This document shows positions 49,190-63,158 of a DNA stretch of 64,000 nucleotides, piece after piece. Source of the DNA: Rhizobium sp. SG_E_25_P2 (GTDB lineage Bacteria; Pseudomonadota; Alphaproteobacteria; Rhizobiales; Rhizobiaceae). Location of the stretch: contig NZ_JARXVM010000009.1 of the NCBI RefSeq assembly GCF_029892285.1, forward strand, positions 124,001 through 188,000. Direction: 5' to 3'. The notes under the pieces were generated by a model. That model made no database searches, had not been told where the DNA came from, and worked only from the letters and a program-made list of their open reading frames with translations. Position numbers and translations under genes: made by a program. Every line of letters starts with the position of its first letter. Position 1 is the first letter of the stretch.

Positions 49190-49813
49190 TTAAAGCGTGG
49201 CGATGAAGTCGAGGACTTCCGCTTCCGAGACCACATCGGCATATTTGGCGTTCATGTCGAACAGATTGGCCTCATGCGGGGCGGGATGCCGGTCGCCGCA
49301 GGCGTCGGCGACGACAGTGGTGATGAAGCCATGCGACATGGCGTCGACACAGCTCGCCCGCACACAGCCGCTGGTGGTGAGGCCGGTGAGGACGACATTG
49401 TCCACGCCCATCGAGGTCAAGAGCGGCGCAAGCGACGTGCCGAAGAAGGCGCTGGGATATTGCTTGGAGATCACGAATTCATCGGCTTCAGGCACAAGTC
49501 CGGCGGGCCATGCGCCGAGCGGATTGCCGGCCGTGAACGAGGCGAGCGGCTTTGCCTTCTGGAAAAAGCGGCCGCCATCCAGACCCGTGGGATGCAGCAC
49601 GACGCCCGTGATGATGACGGGGACGCCTTTCACACGCGCGGCGGCGCGGATGCGCAGCGCGCTTTGAAGCGCCGCGTCCACCCCTGCGTAAAGTGGGCTG
49701 GACGGTTCGAAATAGGCCTGAACGAAATCGACCAGAACCAGCGCCGGCTTCTTGCCGAAGCCGATGCGGTTGTCATAGGCGCGAGCGTAATTTTCCTTGA
49801 GATCGGCATCCAT
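49190..49813 (-). CDS. Isochorismatase-fold amidohydrolase (N-carbamoylsarcosine/maleamate type)
   Basis: A 207-residue cysteine hydrolase. The catalytic triad is visible as Asp in LVLVDFVQAYF (near residue 29), Lys in EFVISKQYPSAFFGT and the nucleophilic Cys in LTTSGCVRASCVDAMSHGF; GDRHPAPHEANLFDMNAKY is the N-carbamoylsarcosine/maleamate amidohydrolase signature, unlike the ureidoacrylate hydrolase RutB. It would cleave a linear amide or carbamoyl group, freeing ammonia (and CO2). It is the last gene of a minus-strand operon starting with the RutA-type gene, 11 bp after the lyase gene. Confidence 0.87.
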   Translation of the reverse strand: MDADLKENYARAYDNRIGFGKKPALVLVDFVQAYFEPSSPLYAGVDAALQSALRIRAAARVKGVPVIITGVVLHPTGLDGGRFFQKAKPLASFTAGNPLGAWPAGLVPEADEFVISKQYPSAFFGTSLAPLLTSMGVDNVVLTGLTTSGCVRASCVDAMSHGFITTVVADACGDRHPAPHEANLFDMNAKYADVVSEAEVLDFIATL

Positions 49814-49824
49814 GTCGGCGTTCC

Positions 49825-50685
49825 TTAGGTTTCCGCATAGGTCTTTTCGAAGCTCCAGACGTCTTCGAAGCCCAAAAGCGTATTGAAGTCCTTGAAGGGA
49901 TAGAGATCCACCGCATCGGTGGTGACGCCATTGTCGAGAAGATCCCGATAGGCGGCGCGAACGGCTTGTCCATGCGCGAGAAAGCCAAGCGCCGGGTAGA
50001 TCGCTACGCCATAACCGAGCGATTTGAGCGTTTCGACCGGCATCAGCGGGGTGCGCCCGCCATTGACCATATTGGCGAGCAGAGGTCTGTCGATGGCGGC
50101 GGCGATCTCGCGGACTTCCTCTTCGCTCTCTGGCGATTCCACGAAAATGATGTCGGCGCCGGCCTTCGCATAGGCCTGGCCGCGGCGGATCGCCTCCGCA
50201 AGACCGAGGCCGGTGCGCGCGTCCGTCCGGGCGATGATCAGAAAATCATCGCTTGTACGACTGTCGACGGCGACCTGGATCTTTCGCACCATGTCTTCCA
50301 TCGGCACGACGCGGCGATTGGGCGTATGGCCGCATTTCTTCGGAAATTCCTGATCTTCCAGCTGGATGGCGCTGACGCCGGCCTGTTCGTAGCCCCGCAC
50401 AGTATGGCGCACATTCAGGAGGCCGCCATAGCCGGTGTCTGCGTCGGCGATCACCGGCGTCTTCGTGCGCGCGACGATCTGGGCGATGCGCTCGATCATA
50501 TCGCGATAAGTTGCAATTCCGGCGTCGGGAATGCCGAGATAGGAGGCGACGGTCCCGTAACCGGTGACGTAGAGGGCTGGAAATCCCATCGTATCGGCGA
50601 TGAGCGCTGAGATCAGTTCATAGACGCCTGGGGCGAGAATGAACCGTTTTTCCGTGAGCGCCAGTTTCAGTGCGGGATCTGCCAT
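49825..50685 (-). CDS. Isocitrate lyase/PEP mutase-family C-C lyase (methylisocitrate or dimethylmalate lyase type)
   Basis: A 286-residue TIM-barrel enzyme. The metal-binding DADTGYGG and the gating-loop motif KKCGH in QLEDQEFPKKCGH are present; a Cys in this loop marks true lyases (PrpB, 2,3-dimethylmalate lyase) rather than PEP mutase. It would split a 2-hydroxy-dicarboxylate into pyruvate or glyoxylate plus a short acid. It overlaps the upstream amidase gene by 19 bp, so it works in the same pathway, probably on the nitrogen-free carbon skeleton at the end. Confidence 0.85.
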   Translation of the reverse strand: MADPALKLALTEKRFILAPGVYELISALIADTMGFPALYVTGYGTVASYLGIPDAGIATYRDMIERIAQIVARTKTPVIADADTGYGGLLNVRHTVRGYEQAGVSAIQLEDQEFPKKCGHTPNRRVVPMEDMVRKIQVAVDSRTSDDFLIIARTDARTGLGLAEAIRRGQAYAKAGADIIFVESPESEEEVREIAAAIDRPLLANMVNGGRTPLMPVETLKSLGYGVAIYPALGFLAHGQAVRAAYRDLLDNGVTTDAVDLYPFKDFNTLLGFEDVWSFEKTYAET

Positions 50686-51992
50686 GCGAACTCCAGGGGC
50701 TTATGGGCATTAAGGACCGGCGCGATGCGGGCCGCGACGGCAAGGAGCGAAGGGTCTGAAAAACGCGGACCCAACAGGGTGACGCCGATCGGCAGAGCGA
50801 AACCGGAAAGCGGCGCATGCAATGCGGGAACGCCGAGCAGCGTCCAGATGGCGTTGAACACGGGATCGCCCGGCCGTCGTCCAACCGGCGCGAAACCTGG
50901 AGCGCTGGGCGCGATCACCACGTCGAAATCGGATGCCAGCAGATCGAAATCGACCCGCGCTTCTGCTGCGGCGTCATAGGCGGCGCGGAGATCGGCGAGC
51001 GAGCGCCGGTCGCGGTTTTCCACCCGGTGATGAAAATCATCATGCAGATCGGCGCCGAAACGGCGGGCAAGATTGCGGAAGGCGGCGGCGCCCTCGCGAT
51101 GCAGGATCGTGCGATGGTGATGATCGAGTTCGGCGAAGGACGGCGGAAGTTCGAGATGGCGTATGTCCCATCCCGCCTCGCGCAACCGGTCCCCGGCAGC
51201 TGCGAGCGCGGCTTGGGCGTCGCCATCGAGCTTTTCGGCATGCGGGCCTCGGGCGATCGCGATTGATAGGTCTTGGGAGCCCTTGGATGGGCGGATTGCC
51301 TCGGTCAGACCGAAAACGCCGGCGAGGAGCGAAAGATCTTCGACGGAGCGGGCGTGCCAACCGATAGTGTCGAGGCTGTTGGCGTAAGTCTTCACCCCTT
51401 CCCGGCTGACCAGTCCGAAAGACGGCTTGAACGCGTAGACGCCGCAGAAGGAGGCCGGCCGGATGGTCGAGCCGCCAGTCTGCGTGGCGAGCGCCAGCGG
51501 AACATGTCCATCCGCCACGCCGGCGGCGGACCCGGCGGATGAGCCGCCCGACGTTCTCGTCAAATCGACGGGATTTCCCGTCGCGGCGTCACGTCCGGCT
51601 GCGGCGAATTCCGTCGTGTCGGTCTTTCCGAGAATGATCGCGCCTTCTGCGCGCAGGAGATCGACCGGAGCGGCATCAGCCGCAGGCTGGAAATTCGAAA
51701 AGAGCGGCGAGTTATGTGTGGTCGGCAGATCCCTGGTGTCGAACACGTCCTTCACGCCGACCGGGAGGCCATGAAGCCGACCGCGCTTGCTCAGGGGAAC
51801 GGCGTCTGCGTCTTCCGCCATCTCAAGGGCGCGGGGATGGATCGCCAGCCAAGCCTTGACCGCGCCATCCCGCGCAGCGATCCGTTTGAGACAGGCTGCG
51901 ATGAGGTCACGGGAGGTTAAATCCCCTGCCCGCAGACGCGACGCAGCCTCCGTTGCGGTCAATCCGTGAAGCGGAACAGCGTTTGACGTCAC
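50667..51992 (-). CDS. Amidase-signature hydrolase 1
   Basis: A 441-residue amidase. The Ser-cisSer-Lys triad is recognisable: Lys in LPVGVKDVFDT (near residue 75), cis-Ser in TSGGSSAGSAAG (near 150) and nucleophile Ser in LATQTGGSTIRPASFCG (near 174). AS enzymes cut amides, ureido acids, biuret and allophanate. The ATG overlaps the stop of amidase 2 by four bases, and its 3' end overlaps the lyase gene by 19 bp. Two amidases in a row suggest successive cleavage of two C-N bonds. Confidence 0.88.
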   Translation of the reverse strand: MTSNAVPLHGLTATEAASRLRAGDLTSRDLIAACLKRIAARDGAVKAWLAIHPRALEMAEDADAVPLSKRGRLHGLPVGVKDVFDTRDLPTTHNSPLFSNFQPAADAAPVDLLRAEGAIILGKTDTTEFAAAGRDAATGNPVDLTRTSGGSSAGSAAGVADGHVPLALATQTGGSTIRPASFCGVYAFKPSFGLVSREGVKTYANSLDTIGWHARSVEDLSLLAGVFGLTEAIRPSKGSQDLSIAIARGPHAEKLDGDAQAALAAAGDRLREAGWDIRHLELPPSFAELDHHHRTILHREGAAAFRNLARRFGADLHDDFHHRVENRDRRSLADLRAAYDAAAEARVDFDLLASDFDVVIAPSAPGFAPVGRRPGDPVFNAIWTLLGVPALHAPLSGFALPIGVTLLGPRFSDPSLLAVAARIAPVLNAHKPLEFAWQIPH

Positions 51993-53407
51993 AGTCCGGC
52001 CCCCGGAGGCATGGCGTTATGGTGATCGGTCGCATTCTGAAAGGCGATGGCCGCCTCCAGACACAGAACATCTTCGCCTGGCCGGCTGATAATCTGTATG
52101 CCGGTCGGCAATCCTGCGGCGCCGAAACCCGATGGCGCCATGAGCGCCGGAAAGCCTGTGACGTCGAAGATCATGGTGTTGCGCGAAATGATATGCTGAA
52201 AGGCGACCGCCTCGCCGTTGATGTCGACCGTCATCGTATCGAGCCTGCCTGCTTCCCCGCCGATCCCGGGGGTGATCATCACATCGACCTCCGCCATCGC
52301 GGCGCCCAACGCGGCCTGGGCGTCGATCCTTGCCTGCAGCGCGGAGATGTAGTCGACGGCCGAATAACCAAGGCCGTTGCGGAGCCTGACGAGAAGTCCA
52401 GGATCGAAAAGCTCGGCGCGGTCGAGACGATCATGCTGGAGCGCCGCCAATTCGCTCTGCAGGATGATCCAGCCGGCTTCGTGCCAGGGGGCGATGTCGA
52501 TCGGCGGCATGTCAATCAGCCGATGTCCGAGCGCGTCGAACACTTTCAGCGCTATGCCCCAATTCTCCAGCACCGAGCGATCGACGCGCTCGGTGAACCA
52601 GGTCTGCGGCACGCCGATCCTCAACGGCCGGCCGGGCGGCTGCGCCGAGAGCGTCGCGCATCCGGCAATGACCGAGGGATCTGGCTCCGCCGTCATGAAG
52701 GGCAGGACGCGGGCAATATCGGCCGCGCTTCGAGCCATTGGCCCGACATGATCGAGTGTCCAGGACAGAGGCGCGACGCCCCGGCGCGAGACAAGCTCCC
52801 TGCTCGGCTTGAGACCGGTGGTTCCACACCAGCAGGACGGAACGCGGATCGAGCCGCCGGTGTCGGTGCCGAGCGCGAAAGGCATCAGGCGCGCGGCGAG
52901 CGCCGCCCCGGACCCAGTCGAGGATCCGCCCGTCCAGCGCGTTTCGTCCCAAGGATTATGCACCGCGCCAAAGCGTGGATTATGCGGCGAGCCGGCGGCA
53001 AATTCAGTGGTGGCGGTGATGGCCATGGGAATGGCGCCCGCCGCTCGCAATCGGCTCACGACATGCGCGTCCGCTGCAGCAATGCGGTCACCGGTGAATA
53101 ATGAGCCACAGGTCACGCCTGCGCCGGCGACGTCGATAATGTCCTTGACGCCGAAAGGGACGCCTTCCAGCGGTCGCGGTCGTCCCGCCGCCCAGCGACG
53201 GCTGCTGTCATCTGCCGCGGCTTGCGCATCCGGTGTGAGCCGCAGCACCGACTGGGTTCCTGCTGGCAACGCCTCGATCGCCGCGACGAGTTCGGCGACA
53301 TAATCCAGGGGCGTGTAGGACGCGGAGGCGAAGGCGGACAGGAGATCTGCGATCCCCATGTCGCGCATCGGTCGCGTCAAGGGCGCCGCTATTGTCGGCA
53401 GGCCCAT
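51989..53407 (-). CDS. Amidase-signature hydrolase 2
   Basis: A 472-residue amidase with Lys in GVPFGVKDIIDVAG, cis-Ser in TGGSSTGSGAAL and nucleophile Ser in GTDTGGSIRVPSCWCG. The frame is open to 53518, five bases from the RutA-type stop. The start at 53407 is chosen because the amidase fold begins soon after; 53371 and a GTG at 53518 remain possible and no clear ribosome site decides. Its N-terminal region (MGIADLLSAFASASYTPLDYVAELVAAIEAL) resembles AtzF/ureidomalonase-type amidases. It follows the RutA-type gene in the operon. Confidence 0.84.
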   Translation of the reverse strand: MGLPTIAAPLTRPMRDMGIADLLSAFASASYTPLDYVAELVAAIEALPAGTQSVLRLTPDAQAAADDSSRRWAAGRPRPLEGVPFGVKDIIDVAGAGVTCGSLFTGDRIAAADAHVVSRLRAAGAIPMAITATTEFAAGSPHNPRFGAVHNPWDETRWTGGSSTGSGAALAARLMPFALGTDTGGSIRVPSCWCGTTGLKPSRELVSRRGVAPLSWTLDHVGPMARSAADIARVLPFMTAEPDPSVIAGCATLSAQPPGRPLRIGVPQTWFTERVDRSVLENWGIALKVFDALGHRLIDMPPIDIAPWHEAGWIILQSELAALQHDRLDRAELFDPGLLVRLRNGLGYSAVDYISALQARIDAQAALGAAMAEVDVMITPGIGGEAGRLDTMTVDINGEAVAFQHIISRNTMIFDVTGFPALMAPSGFGAAGLPTGIQIISRPGEDVLCLEAAIAFQNATDHHNAMPPGAGL

Positions 53408-53522
53408 GACATGAAGCGGATGCGGCGGTCGACGAAAGGGAAGGTCCGCCCGCGTCGGATCCCGCCCATCAAGGGGGCCCTGCGCCTGTCCCGTGTCCGA
53501 CACCCGCATCCGCGACACCGGC

Positions 53523-54605
53523 CTATTCCGCGGCGATTTTAAGGGCGCTGCGGCTTTCCATCAGCGGCTGAATACGCTGCCCGAACTGGTCGAGACCGAT
53601 CAGGAAGTCGTCGAAAGTCAGCATGATGCCCTTGGTGCCGGCAACGGTCGCGGCTTCGTCGAGCATGCGCGCGACGCTCGCATAGGAGCCCACCAACGTG
53701 CCCATGTTGAAATTGACGGCGCCTTCCGGGAGGTTGATCGATTTTGCGGTCGAGGAGGCGTCGGCATTGGCGTCTTTCGAGCCCTGATCCGCCATCCAGG
53801 CGAGCGCGCCGACATCAGCGCCGGCGCGGTAGCTTTCCCATTTCGCCTTGGCCAGCTCATCCGTCTCGTCGGCGATCACCATGAACAACACATAGGAGCC
53901 GACGTCGCGGCCGGTCTTGGCGGCGGCGGCGATCAGCCGCTCATTGTTGGGCGCATAGGCGGTGGGCGTGTTGATGCCCGAGCCCAGCACGAAATTGTAG
54001 TCGGCATATTGAGCGGCGAACTCCATGCCGCGCGGGCTCTGGCCTGCCGCGACGATTTCGATCTTGTGCTCGGGCATCGGCCGCATCTTGCAATCCTTCA
54101 TGGTGAAGTGCTTGCCGTCGAAGGTGCATTCGCCCGTAGACCAGAGCTCATTCATGATATGCACATATTCGGTCGAATAATCGTAGCGGTAGCCGAAATA
54201 GTCGTCCCCGGGCCAGATGCCCATCTGGTCGTATTCCGCCATTTGCCAGCCGGAGACGATGTTGACGCCGAAGCGACCGGGCGCGACGGAATCGATCGTG
54301 GTCGCCATCCGCGCCACGATCGCCGGCGGCAGCGTCAGCACGGCGGTGGAAGCGAACAGCTTGATGCGCTCGGTCACGGCGGCGAGCGACGCCATCAGCG
54401 TGAAGGATTCGAGATTGTAGTCCCAGAATTCGGTTTCGCCGCCGAAGCCGCGAAGCTTGATCATGGAAAGCGCGAAATCCAGGCCATAGCTCTCGGCCTT
54501 CTGGACGATCTGTTTGTTGAGCTCGAAGCTCGGCTTGTATTGCGGCGCGGCGGTGGAGATGAGCCAGCCATTGTTGCCGATGGGAATGAAGACGCCAATA
54601 TCCAT
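53523..54605 (-). CDS. rutA: RutA-type flavin monooxygenase (pyrimidine ring-opening family)
   Basis: A 360-residue class-C (LLM) flavin monooxygenase closely like E. coli RutA, which opens the uracil ring between N3 and C4 using FMNH2 and O2. Shared stretches include [48 protein letters not shown] and [21 protein letters not shown]. It needs reduced flavin; a RutF-type reductase is at 62622. No RutB-, RutD- or RutE-like genes are present, so the substrate may not be uracil. It starts the minus-strand operon, with a GTACGAAC variant operator 50 bp upstream. Confidence 0.88.
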
Positions 54606-54650: not shown

Positions 54651-54662
54651 ATGTACGAACTA
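54651..54662. promoter_or_regulatory. GTACGTAC-type operator, variant, upstream of the RutA-type operon
   Basis: ATGTACGAACTA matches the left half (ATGTAC) of the perfect site at 57209-57220 and deviates in the right half. Its centre lies 51 bp before the RutA-type ATG. Candidate site for the GntR/UTRA regulator. Confidence 0.5.
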
Positions 54663-54842
54663 ATGCAAAATTTTTTGGAGCTGTCCAGCCTAAAAATGAC
54701 GCTTCTTTGTGCGCGCCTAAATCATGTGCAGTCGCCTGAAATCCATGCGGACCCCGGCGCCGATGATCGCATCAGGTTGAATGAACAATAGGCGACGGTC
54801 GCGCGTGAGGCGCGTCTGGAAAGCGAAGCGTGTGGGGAAGGG

Positions 54843-55640
54843 TCAGTTTTCGGCGCGGAGCGTCGTGGTATAGGTGAAGCGTTCCGCAGGGAGGACCTGG
54901 AAGGCGTATTCCAGCAAGCGGCGACCAGAACCGTAATAGCGGCGGGTGACGACCAAGGCCAGATCCCCCGTCTTGACGCCAAGGCGGGTGGCGATGTCCT
55001 CGGTCAGCGCCATCGGCTTGATGTCCTGCTCGATTTCCTGGATCTTTTCGCCGGTATATTGCTCGATATAGTGGAATATGGCGCTGCGCGCGACGTCTAT
55101 GTCCTTCACCGCCGCCGATAGCCGGGCGTCGACATAGACCTCATTCCACGAAAACGGACGGCTGCGATTGGTGGGATAACGGATTCCGCCCATATGGAAG
55201 AACTTGCGCCCAGGCCTGCAACCCAGATCCACGGCCAGTCGACCCTGTGCCGAGATCTCTTCCTTGAAGGTGATTACGAATTCGGTTTCAGCGGCGATCT
55301 CGAACAATTCAGCGCGCGAATGGGCGATAAACCGGGTTCGCTCGGGGTTGAAGCCGGCCTCGACGCGTGTGCCAACGCCTTTTCGAGCGGACAGACGACC
55401 CTTGTTGCGCAGGGTGCCGATGGCTTGCCGAACGGTCTGGCGACTGACGCCGAGCGCCTCCGCCAACTCGTTTTCCGTGGGCAGCAACGAACCGACGGGA
55501 TAATCGCCATTGTTGACCTTGTTCTCGATATGGCGCGCGACCTGAAGATAAAGCGGCGCCGTGTCGAGTTCGGGCTTCCAGCCTTTTCCCGTTGGCGGGT
55601 TCTGTTCTTCTGGTTTGGTGAGCGTTGGTATCGAGTTCAT
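54843..55640 (-). CDS. GntR/HutC (UTRA) transcriptional regulator of the RutA/amidase module
   Basis: A 265-residue regulator: GntR HTH at residues about 28-95 (PLYLQVARHIENKVNNGDYPVGSLLPTENELAEALGVSRQTVRQAIGTL), then a UTRA ligand domain of the HutC type (GRKFFHMGGIRYPTNRSRPFSWNEVYVDARL and DIKPMALTEDIATRLGVKTGDLALVVTRRYYGSG). It lies between the RutA operon and the divergent MFS/ABC genes. HutC-type operators have a GT-n4-AC core, which the GTACGTAC sites in this region satisfy. It probably represses uptake and breakdown genes until a pathway compound binds. Confidence 0.87.
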   Translation of the reverse strand: MNSIPTLTKPEEQNPPTGKGWKPELDTAPLYLQVARHIENKVNNGDYPVGSLLPTENELAEALGVSRQTVRQAIGTLRNKGRLSARKGVGTRVEAGFNPERTRFIAHSRAELFEIAAETEFVITFKEEISAQGRLAVDLGCRPGRKFFHMGGIRYPTNRSRPFSWNEVYVDARLSAAVKDIDVARSAIFHYIEQYTGEKIQEIEQDIKPMALTEDIATRLGVKTGDLALVVTRRYYGSGRRLLEYAFQVLPAERFTYTTTLRAEN

Positions 55641-55756
55641 AGAACGATCATGCCTCGTGCGCGGCCTTTGAACCTTCTTTTTCTTGGGAATGCAAACAAA
55701 TTCATGTGAGTTCGTGAAACTGGCGTGAGCGCCTTGATGTCGGGCGCTTCATCGTT

Positions 55757-55768
55757 TAGTACGTACAT
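55757..55768. promoter_or_regulatory. GTACGTAC operator upstream of the MFS gene
   Basis: TAGTACGTACAT, with a perfect 8-bp palindromic core at 55759-55766. It lies in the divergent region between the GntR gene and the MFS gene, 32 bp before the MFS start. Confidence 0.65.
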
Positions 55769-55799
55769 AAGCAAATATCCTACAGGGCGAATTTCCAGA

Positions 55800-57017
55800 A
55801 TGTCCGATATCGCAGCGGAGAGCGAGGTCCCCGAACGGCGGGCTTCGTCTCTTCTTCAAACCCTCTCCACCGCCACGCTGATCCAGATCGTCGCCACCGC
55901 GAGCGTATTGGCGTTGACCGCGATCGCGCCAGCGGTTGCCGCCGATCTCGACGTCGGCGCCTATTGGATCGGCTACCAGATCAGCCTGATCTATGCTTCA
56001 GGCATGTTTTCCTCGGCCATTGCCGGGACTCTGGTGCAGCGCTATGGGCCGGTGAGAGTGGAGCAAGCCGCGCTCGCCTGTTTCGCACTCGGATTTGCGG
56101 GCGTCGCCGCAGCATGGATTCCAGCGATCATAGTCGCGTCTCTGTTCATCGGTCTGGGCTATGGGCTCAACAATCCGGCCGCATCGGAAATGTTGAGCCG
56201 GGTGACTCCCCCCAGCAAGCGCAATCTCATCTTCTCCATCAAGCAATCCGGTGTTCCGCTTGGCGGAATCGTCGCCAGTTTCGCTTTTCCATTCCTGTCC
56301 AGATACATGGATTGGAGGTTGGCGCTGCTCGCAGGCGTCCTTGCCTCCATCGCGACGATGGGCTTGCTGTGGCTGACGCATGCAGCGGAAGCGCCGCGTC
56401 GCGCGGAGGCGGGCTCGCTCGGCAAGGCGCTGGTCGAGGAACAGGCGCTGATCTGGAAAAACAAGCGCTTGCGCGCGCTCAGCATTCTCGGTTTCGCCTA
56501 TTCGGCGATGCAATTGTCGGTGTCGGCCTTTGCTGTCGTGACGCTGACCCACGACGCCGGCTGGTCCCTGCTCGCTGCAGGCGCTGTGGCGGCTGGCATG
56601 CAATTCGCCGGCGCCACGGGGCGAATTTTCTGGGGAGTGGCCGCGGATCGGCTGGGCGGCGGCTTCGTGACTCTTTCGCTGCTCGGATTGCTGGGCGGAA
56701 TGGGTTACGCCGCGCTGTTCTGGCTCGCGGCCATGCCGCACGCCCTGCAGGCCGCGCTATTCATCGCCATGGGCGGCGTCACGATCGGTTGGAACGGGGT
56801 TTTGCTGGCTGAGGTGGCGCATAACGCGCCCGAAGGCCGCGTTGGGGCGATCACGGGCGGAGTCCTGGTCTACACTTTCATCGGCGTCATTGTCGGCCCG
56901 TCCAGTTTTGCGGCGCTCTACGCCCTCACCGGGCACTACGGCGCAAGCTTTCTTGCATTTTCCGGTTTTGGCTTCCTTGGCATGGTGGCGGCCTGGCGCT
57001 GCCGTGTCTCTGTTTAA
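55800..57017 (+). CDS. Major facilitator superfamily transporter
   Basis: A 405-residue membrane carrier with about twelve helices. SLLQTLSTATLIQIVATASVLALTAIAPAVAADL opens helix 1, and the MFS loop between helices 2 and 3 lies near AGTLVQRYGPVRVEQAAL. The frame opens at 55725, but that would place the operator inside the gene, so the ATG at 55800 is preferred. It lies between GTACGTAC operators at 55757 and 57028. It could import the module's substrate or export a product; the direction is not evident. Confidence 0.86.
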   Translation: MSDIAAESEVPERRASSLLQTLSTATLIQIVATASVLALTAIAPAVAADLDVGAYWIGYQISLIYASGMFSSAIAGTLVQRYGPVRVEQAALACFALGFAGVAAAWIPAIIVASLFIGLGYGLNNPAASEMLSRVTPPSKRNLIFSIKQSGVPLGGIVASFAFPFLSRYMDWRLALLAGVLASIATMGLLWLTHAAEAPRRAEAGSLGKALVEEQALIWKNKRLRALSILGFAYSAMQLSVSAFAVVTLTHDAGWSLLAAGAVAAGMQFAGATGRIFWGVAADRLGGGFVTLSLLGLLGGMGYAALFWLAAMPHALQAALFIAMGGVTIGWNGVLLAEVAHNAPEGRVGAITGGVLVYTFIGVIVGPSSFAALYALTGHYGASFLAFSGFGFLGMVAAWRCRVSV

Positions 57018-57027
57018 GCGTTTTTAA

Positions 57028-57039
57028 AAGTACGTACAA
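57028..57039. promoter_or_regulatory. GTACGTAC operator downstream of the MFS gene
   Basis: AAGTACGTACAA, a palindromic core starting 13 bp after the MFS stop and 181 bp before the next copy (centre to centre). With that copy it precedes the ABC/amidase/RutF operon. Confidence 0.6.
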
Positions 57040-57191
57040 AAGATCGAGTTCGGCGTCCTGAATAAGGGCGCCGTTTTGTCGTTGTGCGGGGTCTTTACGC
57101 TTGCGAGTGATCAAGAAATAATCCCGCCGATGTCGAGAAAGTCAGCAGACGCCGCAAAATTGTGCGCTGCAAAAATATCGGCAAAACACGG

Positions 57192-57221
57192 TTGACGATC
57201 GCTCGACTATGTACGTACATT
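57192..57221 (+). promoter_or_regulatory. Candidate promoter of the ABC/amidase/RutF operon
   Basis: TTGACG (57192-57197), 18 bases, TACATT (57216-57221, 4 of 6). The perfect operator 57209-57220 covers the -10, so a bound regulator would block it. Confidence 0.5.
57209..57220. promoter_or_regulatory. Perfect GTACGTAC operator upstream of the ABC operon
   Basis: ATGTACGTACAT is a perfect 12-bp palindrome, the best of the four copies. Its centre is 72 bp before the binding-protein ATG. Confidence 0.7.
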
Positions 57222-57285: not shown

Positions 57286-58395
57286 ATGTCGACCATGCGC
57301 CTGCTTTTCACCACCTCGTTGATCTCCATAGCTTTCTTGGGTGCGGCGCCGCTCGCCGCGTCGGCCGATCCGATGGCGGACGCCAAGGCGATCATCGCGG
57401 AATATCAGAAAATGCCGGTGTTCACGCCGCCCGGCGAGGCGTTCGACGCCAAAGCCTGCATGGCCGGCAAGAAGGTTCTGTCGATCCCGATTTCGATGAC
57501 CATTCCCTTCAATGTCGAATTGCAGAAGGCGATGGCGTCGGCGGCTGAGGAGGTCGGCTTCACCTATACGACCTGGGACAACCAGCTCAAGAGCGACCAG
57601 TGGATCCAGGGCGTGTCGCAGGCGATCAGCCAGAAATATGACGTGCTCGATATCGCCGGCGGTCTCAATCCAGAATGGCTCGGCCCGCAACTGGCCGAGG
57701 CGCGCGGCGCGGGCCTCAAGATCACCACCACGCATTTTTACGATGTGACCCAGACGTCCGCGCCGAGCGTCGATTATTCCGGCAAGGTGGATTTCACCGG
57801 CGCCGGAAAACTGCTCGCTGCCTGGGCCTATGTGAAGACCGAGGGCAAGCCGAACGTGCTGATCATCGGCTCGTCGGACGTGCTTCCCTCCATCCCCTTC
57901 GTCAAGTCTATCCAGGACGAACTGAAGGCGTTGTGCCCCGAATGCAAACAGCAACATCTCGACGTGCCGGTGTCCGAATGGGCTACCAAGATCCAGTCTG
58001 GCGTGCAATCGGCGCTGTTGGCCGATCCGGGCATCAACTACATCCTGCCGATCTATGACTCGATGTCGCAATTCGTCGTACCCGCCCTGCGCATCACCGG
58101 CTCCGAAGGCGCGGTCAAACTGGCGAGTTTCAACGGCACGCCCTTCGTGCTCGACATGGTGCGTGAAGGACAGGTGCAGATGGATGTCGGCGAGAGCCTT
58201 GGCTGGGCCGGTTATGCTGCGATCGACAACATCATGCGCATGATGTGCGGTCAGCCGGAAGTGGCCAAGCTCAACGTGCCGCTGTTGGTGTTTGACGAGA
58301 GCAACATTCAGACCGCCGGCGTGCCCGCCAATTTCAACGATGGTTATGGCGACGCCCATCTCGATGGTTTCCGCAAGCTCTGGAAGCTGAAGTAA
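57286..58395 (+). CDS. ABC importer, type-1 periplasmic binding protein
   Basis: A 379-residue periplasmic protein; the signal peptide begins MRLLFTTSLISIAFLGAAPL and is cut near ASA-DP. The mature part follows the ribose-binding pattern (SIPISMTIPFNVELQKAMASAAEEVG, YDVLDIAGGLNPEWLGPQLAEARGAG, LPIYDSMSQFVVPALRITG). Cysteines near residues 47, 217 and 220 (LCPECKQ) are unusual and could form disulfides. It is the first gene of a six-gene operon that also encodes an amidase and a RutF-type reductase, so the ligand is probably the module's nitrogen compound and not a plain sugar. Confidence 0.87.
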   Translation: MSTMRLLFTTSLISIAFLGAAPLAASADPMADAKAIIAEYQKMPVFTPPGEAFDAKACMAGKKVLSIPISMTIPFNVELQKAMASAAEEVGFTYTTWDNQLKSDQWIQGVSQAISQKYDVLDIAGGLNPEWLGPQLAEARGAGLKITTTHFYDVTQTSAPSVDYSGKVDFTGAGKLLAAWAYVKTEGKPNVLIIGSSDVLPSIPFVKSIQDELKALCPECKQQHLDVPVSEWATKIQSGVQSALLADPGINYILPIYDSMSQFVVPALRITGSEGAVKLASFNGTPFVLDMVREGQVQMDVGESLGWAGYAAIDNIMRMMCGQPEVAKLNVPLLVFDESNIQTAGVPANFNDGYGDAHLDGFRKLWKLK

Positions 58396-58423
58396 GGCGG
58401 CATTTAACTAGCGGGAGCTTGTG

Positions 58424-59971
58424 ATGACCGAGAACGCCGTCCTTCGCATGAACAATATCCGCATGAAATTCGGCGAGCACTACGCGCTCAAGGGCGTCAG
58501 CCTGTCGATCCGGCGGGGCGAGGTGTTCGGGCTATTGGGTCAGAACGGCTCCGGCAAATCCACCCTCATCAAGGTGCTGGCCGGCTTTCATCAACCAGAG
58601 CCGGGCAGCGAGGTCGTGCTGTGGGGACAGACCATGGCTCTGCCGCTCGATCCGACGGAAATCAAGCGGCGCGGCGTCGCCTTCGTGCATCAGCATCTCG
58701 GTCTCGTTCCGTCATTGACGGTGATCGAGAACATGAGAGTGACGTCTCTTGGCCGGCGTACGCCGTGGTTCGTCAATTGGCGGCGCGAGGCGGCGAGCGT
58801 CGCTGGTCTGTTCGCCGAATTCGGCCTCGACATCGATCCCTTGCGGACGGTGGCTGAGCTTTCTCCTGTCGAGCGCGCCTTCGTCGCCATCGTTCGCGCC
58901 TTCGAAGATCTCAGGGCCTCTGATGCGGGTTATGGCGGCGAGGGCATTCTGGTGCTTGATGAGCCCACTCCGTTTCTGCCGGCTGAGGATGTCAAGCGGC
59001 TCTTCGGGCTGATCCGGTCGATTGTCAAGACCGGCGCCTCTGTGGTGATCGTCACCCATGACATTGATGAGGTGCGCGATATCACCGACCGCGTCGCCGT
59101 GCTGCGCGACGGGCAGCTGGTCGATATTCTCGACACCAAGGCTTCGGCCCGTCAGGCGATCCTTGATACGATCGTCGGCGCACGTATCGATGCATTCCAG
59201 AAAAATCGAATGGCCGACCAGGGCGTCCCGGTCGCGGTATCCGTGCGCGGCGCGCCGGATGGCCTCGGGTCGAGTTTCGACTTCGACATCAGGCAGGGCG
59301 AAACGCTGGGGGTCACGGGTCTGATCGGATCCGGTTTCGCCGCGCTTCCCTATCTTCTCTACGGCGCCCGGCGCGGCGCGGGTCGCATGACCATCGGCGA
59401 CCGCACGATCGACCTGGCGTCCCTGACGCCGCTTGCAGCTCAGGCGCTCGGGGTGGCTTTTCTGCCGGGCGACCGCCTCGGCGCGGCGGGCGTCGGTTCG
59501 CTGTCTGTCGCCGACAATATCACTTTGCCGATTCTGGCCGAACTTGGCGGCTTTTTCAGCCTTGATCGCCGCGCGATGGCGCGCGAGGCCGCGCTGATGT
59601 CGGAGGCTTATGACGTCCGGCCCGCCAATCCCTCTCTGAACCTGGCCGCGCTGTCGGGCGGAAATCAGCAGAAAGTCTTGCTCGCCAAATGGCTGCGCAT
59701 CAAGCCGAAACTGCTGATGCTTGACGAGCCGACCCAAGGGGTGGATTTCGGCGCGCGCCAGCAGATCTTCAAGGCGCTCGATCGCGCCGCGCGTGATGGA
59801 ACAGCCATTCTCTGCGCCTCGACCGACAATGAACAACTCGAACAGATTTGCGACCGGATCATCGTCTTTTCGCGCGGACGACCGGTCGCGGAACTCAAAG
59901 GCGATGAGATCAGCCGCGAGGCGATCACCGAAGCCTGCTTTTACTCGGATCAACAGGAGGCTGCTGAATGA
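58424..59971 (+). CDS. ABC importer, double ATPase (RbsA type) with a degenerate first signature
   Basis: A 515-residue ATPase with two NBDs. NBD1 has Walker A GQNGSGKST and Walker B ILVLDEPTPFL, but its signature reads LSPVERAFVAIVRA rather than the usual LS-GQQQ form, followed by a short insertion (RASDAGYGGEG). NBD2 has LSGGNQQKVLLAKW and DEPTQGVD and, as usual, no proper Walker A. GGGAG stands six bases before the ATG at 58424; a GTG one codon earlier is possible. It is 28 bp after the binding-protein gene and overlaps the permease gene (ATGA). Confidence 0.88.
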   Translation: MTENAVLRMNNIRMKFGEHYALKGVSLSIRRGEVFGLLGQNGSGKSTLIKVLAGFHQPEPGSEVVLWGQTMALPLDPTEIKRRGVAFVHQHLGLVPSLTVIENMRVTSLGRRTPWFVNWRREAASVAGLFAEFGLDIDPLRTVAELSPVERAFVAIVRAFEDLRASDAGYGGEGILVLDEPTPFLPAEDVKRLFGLIRSIVKTGASVVIVTHDIDEVRDITDRVAVLRDGQLVDILDTKASARQAILDTIVGARIDAFQKNRMADQGVPVAVSVRGAPDGLGSSFDFDIRQGETLGVTGLIGSGFAALPYLLYGARRGAGRMTIGDRTIDLASLTPLAAQALGVAFLPGDRLGAAGVGSLSVADNITLPILAELGGFFSLDRRAMAREAALMSEAYDVRPANPSLNLAALSGGNQQKVLLAKWLRIKPKLLMLDEPTQGVDFGARQQIFKALDRAARDGTAILCASTDNEQLEQICDRIIVFSRGRPVAELKGDEISREAITEACFYSDQQEAAE

Positions 59972-60981
59972 CGACGCTCGACATGCCCGCCACTCCGGAC
60001 GCGACCGCCAAACACAGTTCGACGATCCGATGGAAGAAGGAGGTGGAACGCTTCGCGCTGGTGGCCGCATGGCTGGCGCTGGTGATTCTGTTCGGAGCGT
60101 TGATGCCGGAATCCTTTCTGAGTTGGCGGAATTTTTCCACCATGTTCGGTTCCCAGGCGGTTCTGGTCGTGCTGACGCTTGCGATCATCATTCCACTGAC
60201 ATCGGGAGATTTTGATCTTTCCGGCGCCTCTTCCCTGACCATGAGCGCCATGCTGATCGCCGTGCTCAACGTCAAGCTTGGCTGGCCGATCGTCCCGGTT
60301 CTGGCCGTGGCCTTGTTGTCCGGCATGGTCGTCGGGGCGGTCAATGCCGTGTTCGTGCTGTATTTCCGCATTCACTCGCTCATCGTCACGCTCGGCGTCG
60401 GAACCTTCGTCAATGGCGCGGTCCTCTGGATCAGCGATTCCCAGACCATATCGGGCGTGTCGATGGGGTTGATCGAATGGGTGATCATCAACAGGCTGTT
60501 CGGCGTGCCCTTGGCCTTTTATTACGCCTTGCTGCTTGCGGGCGTGATCTGGTACGCGCTGGAATTCACCATACCCGGCCGTAAATTGCTGTTCGTGGGC
60601 CGCGGCCGTGAAGTGTCTCGCCTCAATGGCATCGCAGTCGATCGGGTGCGGGCTACTTCCTTTATCCTGTCCGGGCTGATTTCGGCTTTTGCGGGAATGC
60701 TCTATGCGGGCATGACGGGCTCAGCCGATCCTCTTTCCGGGCTCAATTTGCTGCTGCCGGCCTTTGCTGCGGCGTTTCTCGGCGCGACGACCCTGTCGCC
60801 CGGCCGGTTCAACGCCTTTGGCGCCGTCATCGCCGTCTATTTCCTGGTGACCGGCATCACAGGCCTCACCATGCTGGGCGCCAAGGCCTATGTGCAGAAC
60901 CTGTTCTATGGCGGCGCGCTGGTGATCGCGGTGTCGCTGAGCCAGTTGGTGCGCAATCGCCAGCCGCAGGATTTCAGCTGA
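59968..60981 (+). CDS. ABC importer, permease (ribose type)
   Basis: A 337-residue CUT2-like permease with about eight to ten helices. ALVAAWLALVILFGALMPESFLSWRNFSTMFG opens it, and LTLAIIIPLTSGDFDLSGASSLTMSAML holds the family motif, here GDFDLSG instead of GGIDLSVG. The start overlaps the ATPase stop (ATGA) and its stop overlaps the next ATG (TGATG). It forms the channel of the importer. Confidence 0.88.
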   Translation: MTTLDMPATPDATAKHSSTIRWKKEVERFALVAAWLALVILFGALMPESFLSWRNFSTMFGSQAVLVVLTLAIIIPLTSGDFDLSGASSLTMSAMLIAVLNVKLGWPIVPVLAVALLSGMVVGAVNAVFVLYFRIHSLIVTLGVGTFVNGAVLWISDSQTISGVSMGLIEWVIINRLFGVPLAFYYALLLAGVIWYALEFTIPGRKLLFVGRGREVSRLNGIAVDRVRATSFILSGLISAFAGMLYAGMTGSADPLSGLNLLLPAFAAAFLGATTLSPGRFNAFGAVIAVYFLVTGITGLTMLGAKAYVQNLFYGGALVIAVSLSQLVRNRQPQDFS

Positions 60982-61184
60982 TGGATCAGGATCTCGTCGT
61001 CTCCTTTCTGGCCGAGACATTCTGGGGCCGCATGCCCAACGATGCGGAACGCGTGGCGATGCGGGGGCAGATGGAGCGGGACGCCCGCGCCATCGCGCCC
61101 AGATTTTCTGTCGAGTGCAGCGCGCTGTTCGGGGTCGAGCCATCGGCATTCGAGGCATTGATGCGAAGTGAGGCGCAGCCATGA
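60981..61184 (+). CDS. Small AtzG/GatC-like candidate partner of the amidase
   Basis: A 67-residue, probably all-helical protein (DQDLVVSFLAETFWGR, then ERVAMRGQMERDARAIAPRFSVE). I do not recognise the sequence with certainty. Size, helical character and position directly before an amidase gene with an ATGA overlap recall AtzG (DUF4089), the small subunit that binds the amidase AtzE (1-carboxybiuret hydrolase), a pair related to GatC-GatA. It also overlaps the permease stop (TGATG), so it is certainly co-translated. It could instead be an unrelated small protein. Confidence 0.6.
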   Translation: MDQDLVVSFLAETFWGRMPNDAERVAMRGQMERDARAIAPRFSVECSALFGVEPSAFEALMRSEAQP

Positions 61185-62593
61185 GCCTGGATGCGCCCGC
61201 AACGCTCGCGGAAGCGGCCCGATTGATCCGAAGCCGACAAACGTCCTCCGAGGATTTGACCAGGGCTGCGCTTGCGCGCGCGCGATCGAGCCAGGAACGC
61301 CTCAACGCCTTCATCGAAATCGAAGAAGACGCGGCCATCCTCGCCGCCAAGATGGCGGATCGCGCTCTTGCGGAGGAGCTTCCGGTCGGACCGTTGCACG
61401 GGGTTCCCCTCGCCCACAAGGACATGTTCGATCGCCAAGGATTCGTCTCCGGTTGTGGATCGCTCATTCGCGGCAGCTATCGCGCGACGCAGACATCGAC
61501 GGTCATGCGGCGTCTCGCCGAGGCGGGAGCGGTCTCCATCGGCCGGTTGAACATGAGCGAATTCGCCATGGGGCCAACCGGGCACAATGCGCATCACGGC
61601 CGTGCGACCAATCCGATCGATGGCGCGCGAGTGACAGGCGGCTCGTCTTCTGGTTCGGGCGCAGCGGTCGGCGGCGGCGTTGTGCTCGCAGCGCTCGGCT
61701 CCGACACCGGCGGGTCGATACGGCTTCCCGCCGCTTGCTGCGGCGTGGTTGGGATCAAACCGACCCAAGGGCGCATCAGCCGACATGGGGTCATGCCGCT
61801 GTCTTTTTCGCAGGACTGCGTCGGTCCCCTCGCCCGCTCCGTCGAAGACGCCTGGACGATGCTCAAGGTGGTCGCTGGGCCCGATGGACGTGATCCGACC
61901 TGTATTGAGGCCAAGCCGCTCGAGGATTTCACCCTTTCGCCCTCCGAAATCCGGATCGGCGTGCTCGGAGGCCTTTTCGGAGAAGACCTGACTTCTCCTG
62001 TCGCGAAGGGCATGGAGATGGCGATCTCGACGCTCGCCGCCGCGGGCGCCTCCGTTTCCGCCGCGTCGGCCGCCGATCTCAAAGACGTTGCGGAACTCGC
62101 CAATGTCGTGGCCATGGCGGAAGCTGGCGCGCAGCATTTCGACTGGATGCGCGATCGTCCCGACGAATACGGTCCGCAGGTGCGGATGCGGCTCAGCCAG
62201 TCGCTGGCCATTCCCGCGCCGATCTATCTTCGCGCACTGCAGATCCGCAGCGTGATGCTGGCCTCATTCCTTGAGACGGCCTTTGAACGAGCGGATGTGC
62301 TGATCGCTCCGGTCATGCCATTTGCTCCGCCCTTGTCGGCGGACGTCGATGTCGGCGACAGCCCTGAAATGAATCGCGTGGTCGCCGCTATGACCCGATT
62401 TACGCGACCCTTTTCCTATCTCGGCCTTCCGGTGGTCGCCGTGCCAGTCGCGGAAACCGCGGAGGGATTGCCGATCTCGGTGCAATGCGTCGCCCGGCCC
62501 TGGCGTGAGGATCTCGCTGCTGCGGTCGCCGCCAGTCTTGAACACCATCTTCGAACCGACTTCATTTCTCGTCTGTCCCGGTCCGCCGCCTGA
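61181..62593 (+). CDS. Amidase-signature hydrolase 3 (AtzE/GatA-like)
   Basis: A 470-residue amidase with Lys in [15 protein letters not shown] (near residue 75), cis-Ser in [15 protein letters not shown] and nucleophile Ser in [16 protein letters not shown]. The opening [26 protein letters not shown] and [10 protein letters not shown] are GatA/AtzE-like. It overlaps the preceding small gene by four bases, suggesting a heteromeric amidase. It is followed 28 bp later by the RutF-type gene. The third amidase of the module, it would remove a further amide, carbamoyl or carboxyureido group. Confidence 0.88.
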
Positions 62594-62621
62594 TGCGGGG
62601 CCTCAAGGAAAGGATGCCGCC

Positions 62622-63158
62622 ATGAACACTTTAGCCTCGCTAACCCAGCCGATCGAACCCGTCGTGGACGTCCCCCCGCAGATCTTTCGCGACGCGATGA
62701 GCAGGTTGGGCGCCGCCGTCAACATCATCACCACGGATGGGCCGGCGGGCAAAGCGGGTTTTGCCGCGACCGCCGTCTGCAGCGTCACCGACACGCCGCC
62801 CACTCTGCTGGTCTGCCTCAACCGGTCTGCCTCGGTGTTTGATGCGGTGACCGGCAATGGGCGGCTTTGCGTCAATGTGCTGAACGGCGATCAAGACCGT
62901 CTGTCAACGCTTTTCGGCGGCAAGACGCCGGTGGAGGAGCGCTTCGCCGCCGCTGACTGGAGCCAGGGGATTACCGGCGCTCCGATGCTCGATGGGGCGA
63001 TGGCGTCGTTTGATTGCGAGATCACGGAAATGAAGGACATCGGCACGCATCGCGTGTTGTTCTGCACGGTCAAGGCGATCCGGCTGGGAGAGGCTGAGAA
63101 CGCGCTGGTATATTTCCAGCGTGGGTATCACCGTTTGTCCTCCGCCACGGCGGCGTAA
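62622..63158 (+). CDS. rutF: RutF-type flavin reductase
   Basis: A 178-residue flavin reductase of the split-barrel class, very close to E. coli Rut[65 protein letters not shown]. It makes FMNH2 with NAD(P)H for the RutA-type monooxygenase encoded 8 kb away on the other strand. The open frame begins in the amidase gene at 62505, but AAGGA before 62622 and the RutF N-terminus set the start. It is the last gene of the ABC/amidase operon. Its presence here ties both operons into one pathway. Confidence 0.9.

Follow-up and report, generated by a model that had tools for sequence, protein, structure and literature searches.

The window, that is, the whole 64-kb stretch of Rhizobium DNA analysed here, carries a RutA-type flavin oxygenase and a RutF-type flavin reductase in two operons on opposite strands, with a GntR/UTRA regulator gene and an MFS transporter gene between them (Table 1). 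This arrangement raises the question of how the parts of the module are expressed together. A preliminary description, made from the sequence alone, had pointed to four palindromes and proposed that they are GntR operators that tie the module into one regulon. We have examined these sites, their distribution and their conservation in related genomes.

The palindromes and the genes they accompany

The four palindromes lie exactly where they had been reported. Their assignment to promoters needs one correction: all four sites are present, but the copy at 57028, 11 bases past the MFS stop codon, belongs to the region upstream of the ABC operon and not to the MFS promoter. Three copies share the core GTACGTAC, and the core of the rutA operator, read towards rutA, is GTTCGTAC, which lies inside TTAGTTCGTACATAC and precedes the rutA ATG (54605) by about 48 bases.

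Table 1. Genes, operators and promoter of the module, with positions in the window.
Feature	Position	Strand	Basis or remark
Remainder of the rutA operon: two amidases, PEP-mutase/methylisocitrate-lyase family protein, isochorismatase-fold hydrolase	49190..53518	(-)	Pfam, NCBIfam
RutA-type flavin oxygenase	53523..54605	(-)	NCBIfam TIGR03612; first gene of the leftward operon
rutA-operon operator ATGTACGAACTA	54651-54662		Variant; core 54653..54660 (-)
GntR/UTRA (HutC-subfamily) regulator, 265 aa, presumed repressor	54843..55640	(-)	Pfam GntR 1.9e-19, UTRA 2.3e-16
gntR/MFS operator TAGTACGTACAT	55757-55768		Core GTACGTAC 55759..55766; divergent gntR/MFS intergenic region
MFS transporter	55800..57017	(+)	Pfam MFS_1 1.8e-31; ATG 55800 likely, from sequence
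Auxiliary operator AAGTACGTACAA	57028-57039		Core GTACGTAC 57030..57037; 181 bp upstream of the main ABC-operon operator
Sigma-70-like promoter TTGACG-18-TACATT	57192..57221	(+)	Consensus scan, 9 of 12; -10 overlaps the main operator
Main operator ATGTACGTACAT, 12-base perfect palindrome	57209-57220		Core GTACGTAC 57211..57218; before the substrate-binding-protein/ABC/amidase/RutF operon
ABC operon: periplasmic binding protein, ABC ATPase, permease, 67-aa protein, AtzE-like amidase, RutF-type flavin reductase	57286..63158	(+)	
67-aa protein	60981-61184	(+)	Within the ABC operon
AtzE-like amidase	61181-62593	(+)	Within the ABC operon
RutF-type flavin reductase	ATG 62622	(+)	ABC operon

In the window, GTACGTAC occurs three times against 0.05 copies expected, a number that none of 100 shuffles reached. 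Genome-wide (5.56 Mb), it occurs four times, three of them in the window, whereas TGTACGTACA is found once and AGTNCGTACAT twice, both times inside the module. The number of unlinked copies, which had been suggested as a check on the regulon, hence comes to one for GTACGTAC and to none for TGTACGTACA and AGTNCGTACAT. The single unlinked GTACGTAC (G000:C5:253501; L002:1501) precedes a gene that, by its appearance, resembles one for a pyridoxamine-phosphate-oxidase-type FMN protein. One close relative (G163) preserves this copy intact within a stretch of 201 bases that is 94% identical, and a comparable match was absent from all the other relatives searched; this site is at most a possible target of the regulator. 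The same letters in reverse order, CATGCATG, are present in 113 copies in the genome versus four of GTACGTAC, which suggests an avoidance of GTAC-rich words.

The regulator has an N-terminal GntR winged helix-turn-helix (PF00392, 69.5 bits, cut-off 27) and a C-terminal UTRA effector domain (PF07702, 60.3 bits, cut-off 23.8), and scores 96 bits against the HutC equivalog model TIGR02018, below the cut-off of 220. The RutA of the window exceeds the cut-off of TIGR03612 (629.6 versus 498.3 bits), which does not by itself fix the substrate. The RutF-type reductase falls just under that of TIGR03615 (251 versus 254.75 bits), and the isochorismatase-fold hydrolase stays below that of the RutB model TIGR03614 (42.1 versus 377.95 bits). 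The ABC operon has overlapping or tightly packed genes, it yielded no internal sigma-70-like promoter, and its terminator-like sites do not exceed chance level; the simplest reading is, therefore, that RutF is transcribed from the promoter at the main operator. The open reading frame of the 67-aa protein shares a few bases with the end of the permease gene and with the beginning of the amidase gene, and a small protein (66-70 aa) is kept in every module genome with the ABC operon. It reached no Pfam or NCBIfam model; by its size and its place before the AtzE-like amidase, it resembles AtzG-type small subunits.

Conservation of the sites and their linkage to gntR

Orthologues of the GntR protein (hits with at least 72% identity) were found at 22 loci in other genomes, 21 of them with the module; these 21, five further genomes of the family and the window make up the 27 module genomes compared. 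The rutA and gntR/MFS sites are present at the same places in 27 of 27, and the ABC site in every module genome that has the ABC operon, a tally that includes three genomes with a truncated gene start, where the site was initially classed as auxiliary. The check for conservation in orthologous promoters, proposed in the preliminary description, has thereby been carried out, with sites in the same promoters of the 26 other module genomes. All promoters of all the module genomes compared have a GTnCGnAC sequence, with the GT-n4-AC spacing. Since the variation falls mostly on core positions 3 and 6, the core is better written GTnCGnAC. The site search used this same pattern, so that the invariant letters are partly a matter of construction, but promoter alignments made without any pattern show the same conservation. 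In each of the three intergenic alignments (rutA, gntR/MFS and ABC), conservation peaks at the 14-mer of the site (0.99, 0.975 and 0.98, against alignment means of 0.73, 0.63 and 0.60).

This GntR protein is encoded in 12 of 298 genomes of the family. The 14-mer of the rutA operator, TTAGTTCGTACATA, occurs in nine of the 298, all among these 12 and always near gntR, and the other three carry single-base GTnCGnAC variants at the same places. Such a co-occurrence is partly physical linkage and so does not constitute independent evidence; the conservation of the sites against diverging flanks is, therefore, the stronger argument.

Several genomes provide natural controls. The second RutA of the same genome (63% identical; G000:C8:13118-14182, L102) has no palindrome, which marks the RutA of the window as a distinct, module-specific paralogue; a RutF-like gene lies near this second copy. 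No such site was found at a RutA of 75% identity in a genome without the GntR protein (L103). This gene adjoins a divergent LysR gene (L103:9982-12431), which suggests that control of related RutA genes has passed to a different regulator. In L010, there is neither an ABC operon beside gntR nor an ABC site, and the other two sites are kept. A natural deletion is seen in Rhizobium sp. G21 (L007:9211-13950), where gntR is kept and the module and sites are lost: on one side of the solitary gene is a SURF1 gene and on the other are the SBF-like/LysR/M20 genes known from the flank of the module in the window, and searches of that genome revealed no site pattern and no RutA. The helix-turn-helix of this solitary GntR has Lys where the module GntR proteins of the Rhizobiaceae have Asn.

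Judging from the sequence, we consider it very probable that the palindromes serve the embedded GntR/UTRA protein as operators and tie the transcription units of the module into one regulon. The scarcity of unlinked copies and the conservation in orthologous promoters both favour this proposal of the preliminary description. A local regulon of an ordinary bacterial type is, in this respect, well supported.

Promoter overlap and mode of control

The perfect palindrome had been described as covering a candidate -10. This is borne out by the consensus scan, in which the -10 of the TTGACG-18-TACATT match overlaps the main operator, and by the aligned genomes, in which a TTGAC -35 is kept at a fixed distance from the ABC operator. 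The rutA and MFS promoters were not recognisable in the sigma-70 consensus scan, so the overlap with a -10 is supported at the ABC operon only. With an operator on the -10 and a constant distance to the TTGAC, repression by blocking of the polymerase is the natural reading, and the regulation at these operators is presumed to be repression.

A GntR dimer would bind the CG-centred pair of half-sites (A/T)GTnCGnAC(A/T) in operators lying over the promoters of three units, namely the rutA-amidase operon, the divergent gntR/MFS pair and the ABC-transporter/amidase/RutF operon, and its presence on the -10 region would keep these units off. A metabolite of the pathway, by default an intermediate, would bind to the UTRA domain, lower the affinity and free all the units together, and the oxygenase RutA and the flavin reductase RutF would be made simultaneously. 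The 55757 site probably serves both MFS and gntR; in GntR divergons, a single site usually serves both genes (PMC4494728). The regulator would then repress its own gene through this site, a probable autoregulation that the preliminary description had missed.

Also missed was a systematic one-base departure in the rutA operator, which is never a perfect palindrome: position 3 is T in 25 of the 27 module genomes, G in two and A in none. The persistence of this departure in nearly all relatives suggests that the rutA site is kept weaker than the others, which would provide a graded control. Six other module genomes have a counterpart of the auxiliary site 179-214 bp from the main operator, five of them at 179 bp, and in L020 there is a weaker one, ATACGTAC, at 190 bp; in most other module genomes, no clear counterpart was found. 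A distance of 179 bp corresponds to 17.05 DNA turns at 10.5 bp, close to a whole number, and looping between the auxiliary and main operators is possible.

Other readings of the same sites deserve consideration. The shortness of the motif is all that favours a non-regulatory origin, by chance or as pieces of a repeated element, and we reject this as next to impossible in view of the enrichment, the few copies in the genome, the placement at promoters only and the promoter alignments, where the sites are conserved amid diverging flanks. The same protein might, at the same sites, act as an activator, or as a repressor at some promoters and an activator at others. Some GntR proteins do activate transcription, and the conserved CTGGACA block upstream of the rutA operator could be a site for another regulator or a -35. 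However, the ABC operator lies across the -10 with a constant spacing to the conserved TTGAC, which is the usual position of a repressor, and activation is in our view improbable.

Less probable still is that another regulator, e.g., the true HutC or a further UTRA paralogue, is the main protein bound at the sites, the local GntR being incidental to them. Besides this GntR, the genome codes for five UTRA paralogues (six UTRA proteins in total), with a true HutC (L112) among them, and TGTACGTACA does fit the HutC operator TGTA-N2-TACA (PMC12977541), so that one of these proteins could bind there as well. Nevertheless, the 14-mer is restricted to GntR-bearing genomes among the 298 of the family, TGTACGTACA is single in the genome, no TGTAnnTACA occurs in the 3.4 kb around the genome's own hutC, and the recognition helix has Met in HutC versus Gln in this GntR. 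Repression of the module by its own GntR protein is the reading we retain.

Relation to known regulators and pathways

In most operators of the HutC subfamily, four bases separate GT from AC (PMC4494728), and the HutC-type GT-n4-AC core named in the preliminary description is correct for this subfamily, with GT-ACGT-AC at the sites. The regulator shares with the HutC of Pseudomonas the GntR helix-turn-helix and the UTRA domain, an operator of the form TGTA-N2-TACA (PMC12977541), as far as TGTACGTACA fits it, and a local catabolic regulon with operators that overlap promoters. It differs in that it is not an orthologue, the true HutC of this genome being a separate protein (L112; 269.6 bits against TIGR02018), in the CG centre of its sites in every module genome and in its targets, a RutA-type cluster. 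With the amino-sugar repressors NagR/YvoA and DasR, it has in common the domain make-up, a conserved Arg at the start of the recognition helix, the G at -4 and the six-base G-C spacing (PMC4333415). In NagR, it is Arg48 that reads the G at -4, with half-sites six bases apart (PMC4333415); GTACGTAC fits this geometry, and the GntR of the module has kept the Arg. In contrast, the Arg38 of NagR, which reads a G at -5, is Asn here, and the module sites have A or T at -5. This Asn as the sole key to specificity was ruled out, because Thioclava and Palleronia have Thr or Ser at that position and keep GTnCGnAC. The position after the recognition-helix Arg correlates with the central bases of the operator (PMC4494728). 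It is occupied by Gln here, by His in Palleronia and by Met in the true HutC of this genome, and we infer that the Gln or His reads the CG centre.

The RutR-controlled rut operon likewise encodes RutA and RutF enzymes. Its regulator, RutR, is of the TetR type, whereas that of the module is a GntR/UTRA protein. The RutA proteins of the clade found in the window are 84-100% alike where this GntR is present and 60-65% alike to other RutA proteins.

More distantly, plasmids of Palleronia and Thioclava, both of the Rhodobacterales, have gntR beside rutA, with GntR proteins that are 48-51% identical. Their gntR and rutA promoters hold five GTnCGnAC sequences in five regions against 0.15 expected (0 of 5000 shuffles), and in the ABC promoter of Palleronia, the match is limited to a weaker GTCCATAC. 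In Thioclava (L119:6420-7525), the cluster's flavin reductase gene overlaps with a gene for 3,4-dihydroxy-2-butanone-4-phosphate synthase, an enzyme of riboflavin synthesis, and it looks as though the pathway included a supply of flavin. On Azospirillum plasmids (L122:971, L123:918), a CoA-ester/amidase/TRAP cluster has a perfect TTGTACGTACAA in a divergent promoter, and a GntR of 35% identity is encoded nearby; this operator may, therefore, be spread more widely.

In the part of the literature that is openly accessible, we found no description of this CG-centred operator with such a regulator, or of a RutA/GntR cluster. We lean, if only modestly, towards a broader view, namely that an uncharacterised clade of UTRA repressors, whose GTnCGnAC operator is read at its CG centre by the Gln or His of SR[QH]T, controls through graded operators an undescribed RutA-type ring-opening pathway, distinct from the canonical rut pathway, in Rhizobiales and Rhodobacterales.

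The regulon would define a co-expressed set of two operons, two transport systems and a regulator, and joint expression would place the RutA-type oxygenase, the reductase, the amidases and the ABC importer in one pathway. The ligand of the regulator would offer a direct handle on the substrate of this pathway and so make it findable, and the conserved operator, paired with its recognition helix, would be an addition to the specificity code of the GntR/HutC proteins.
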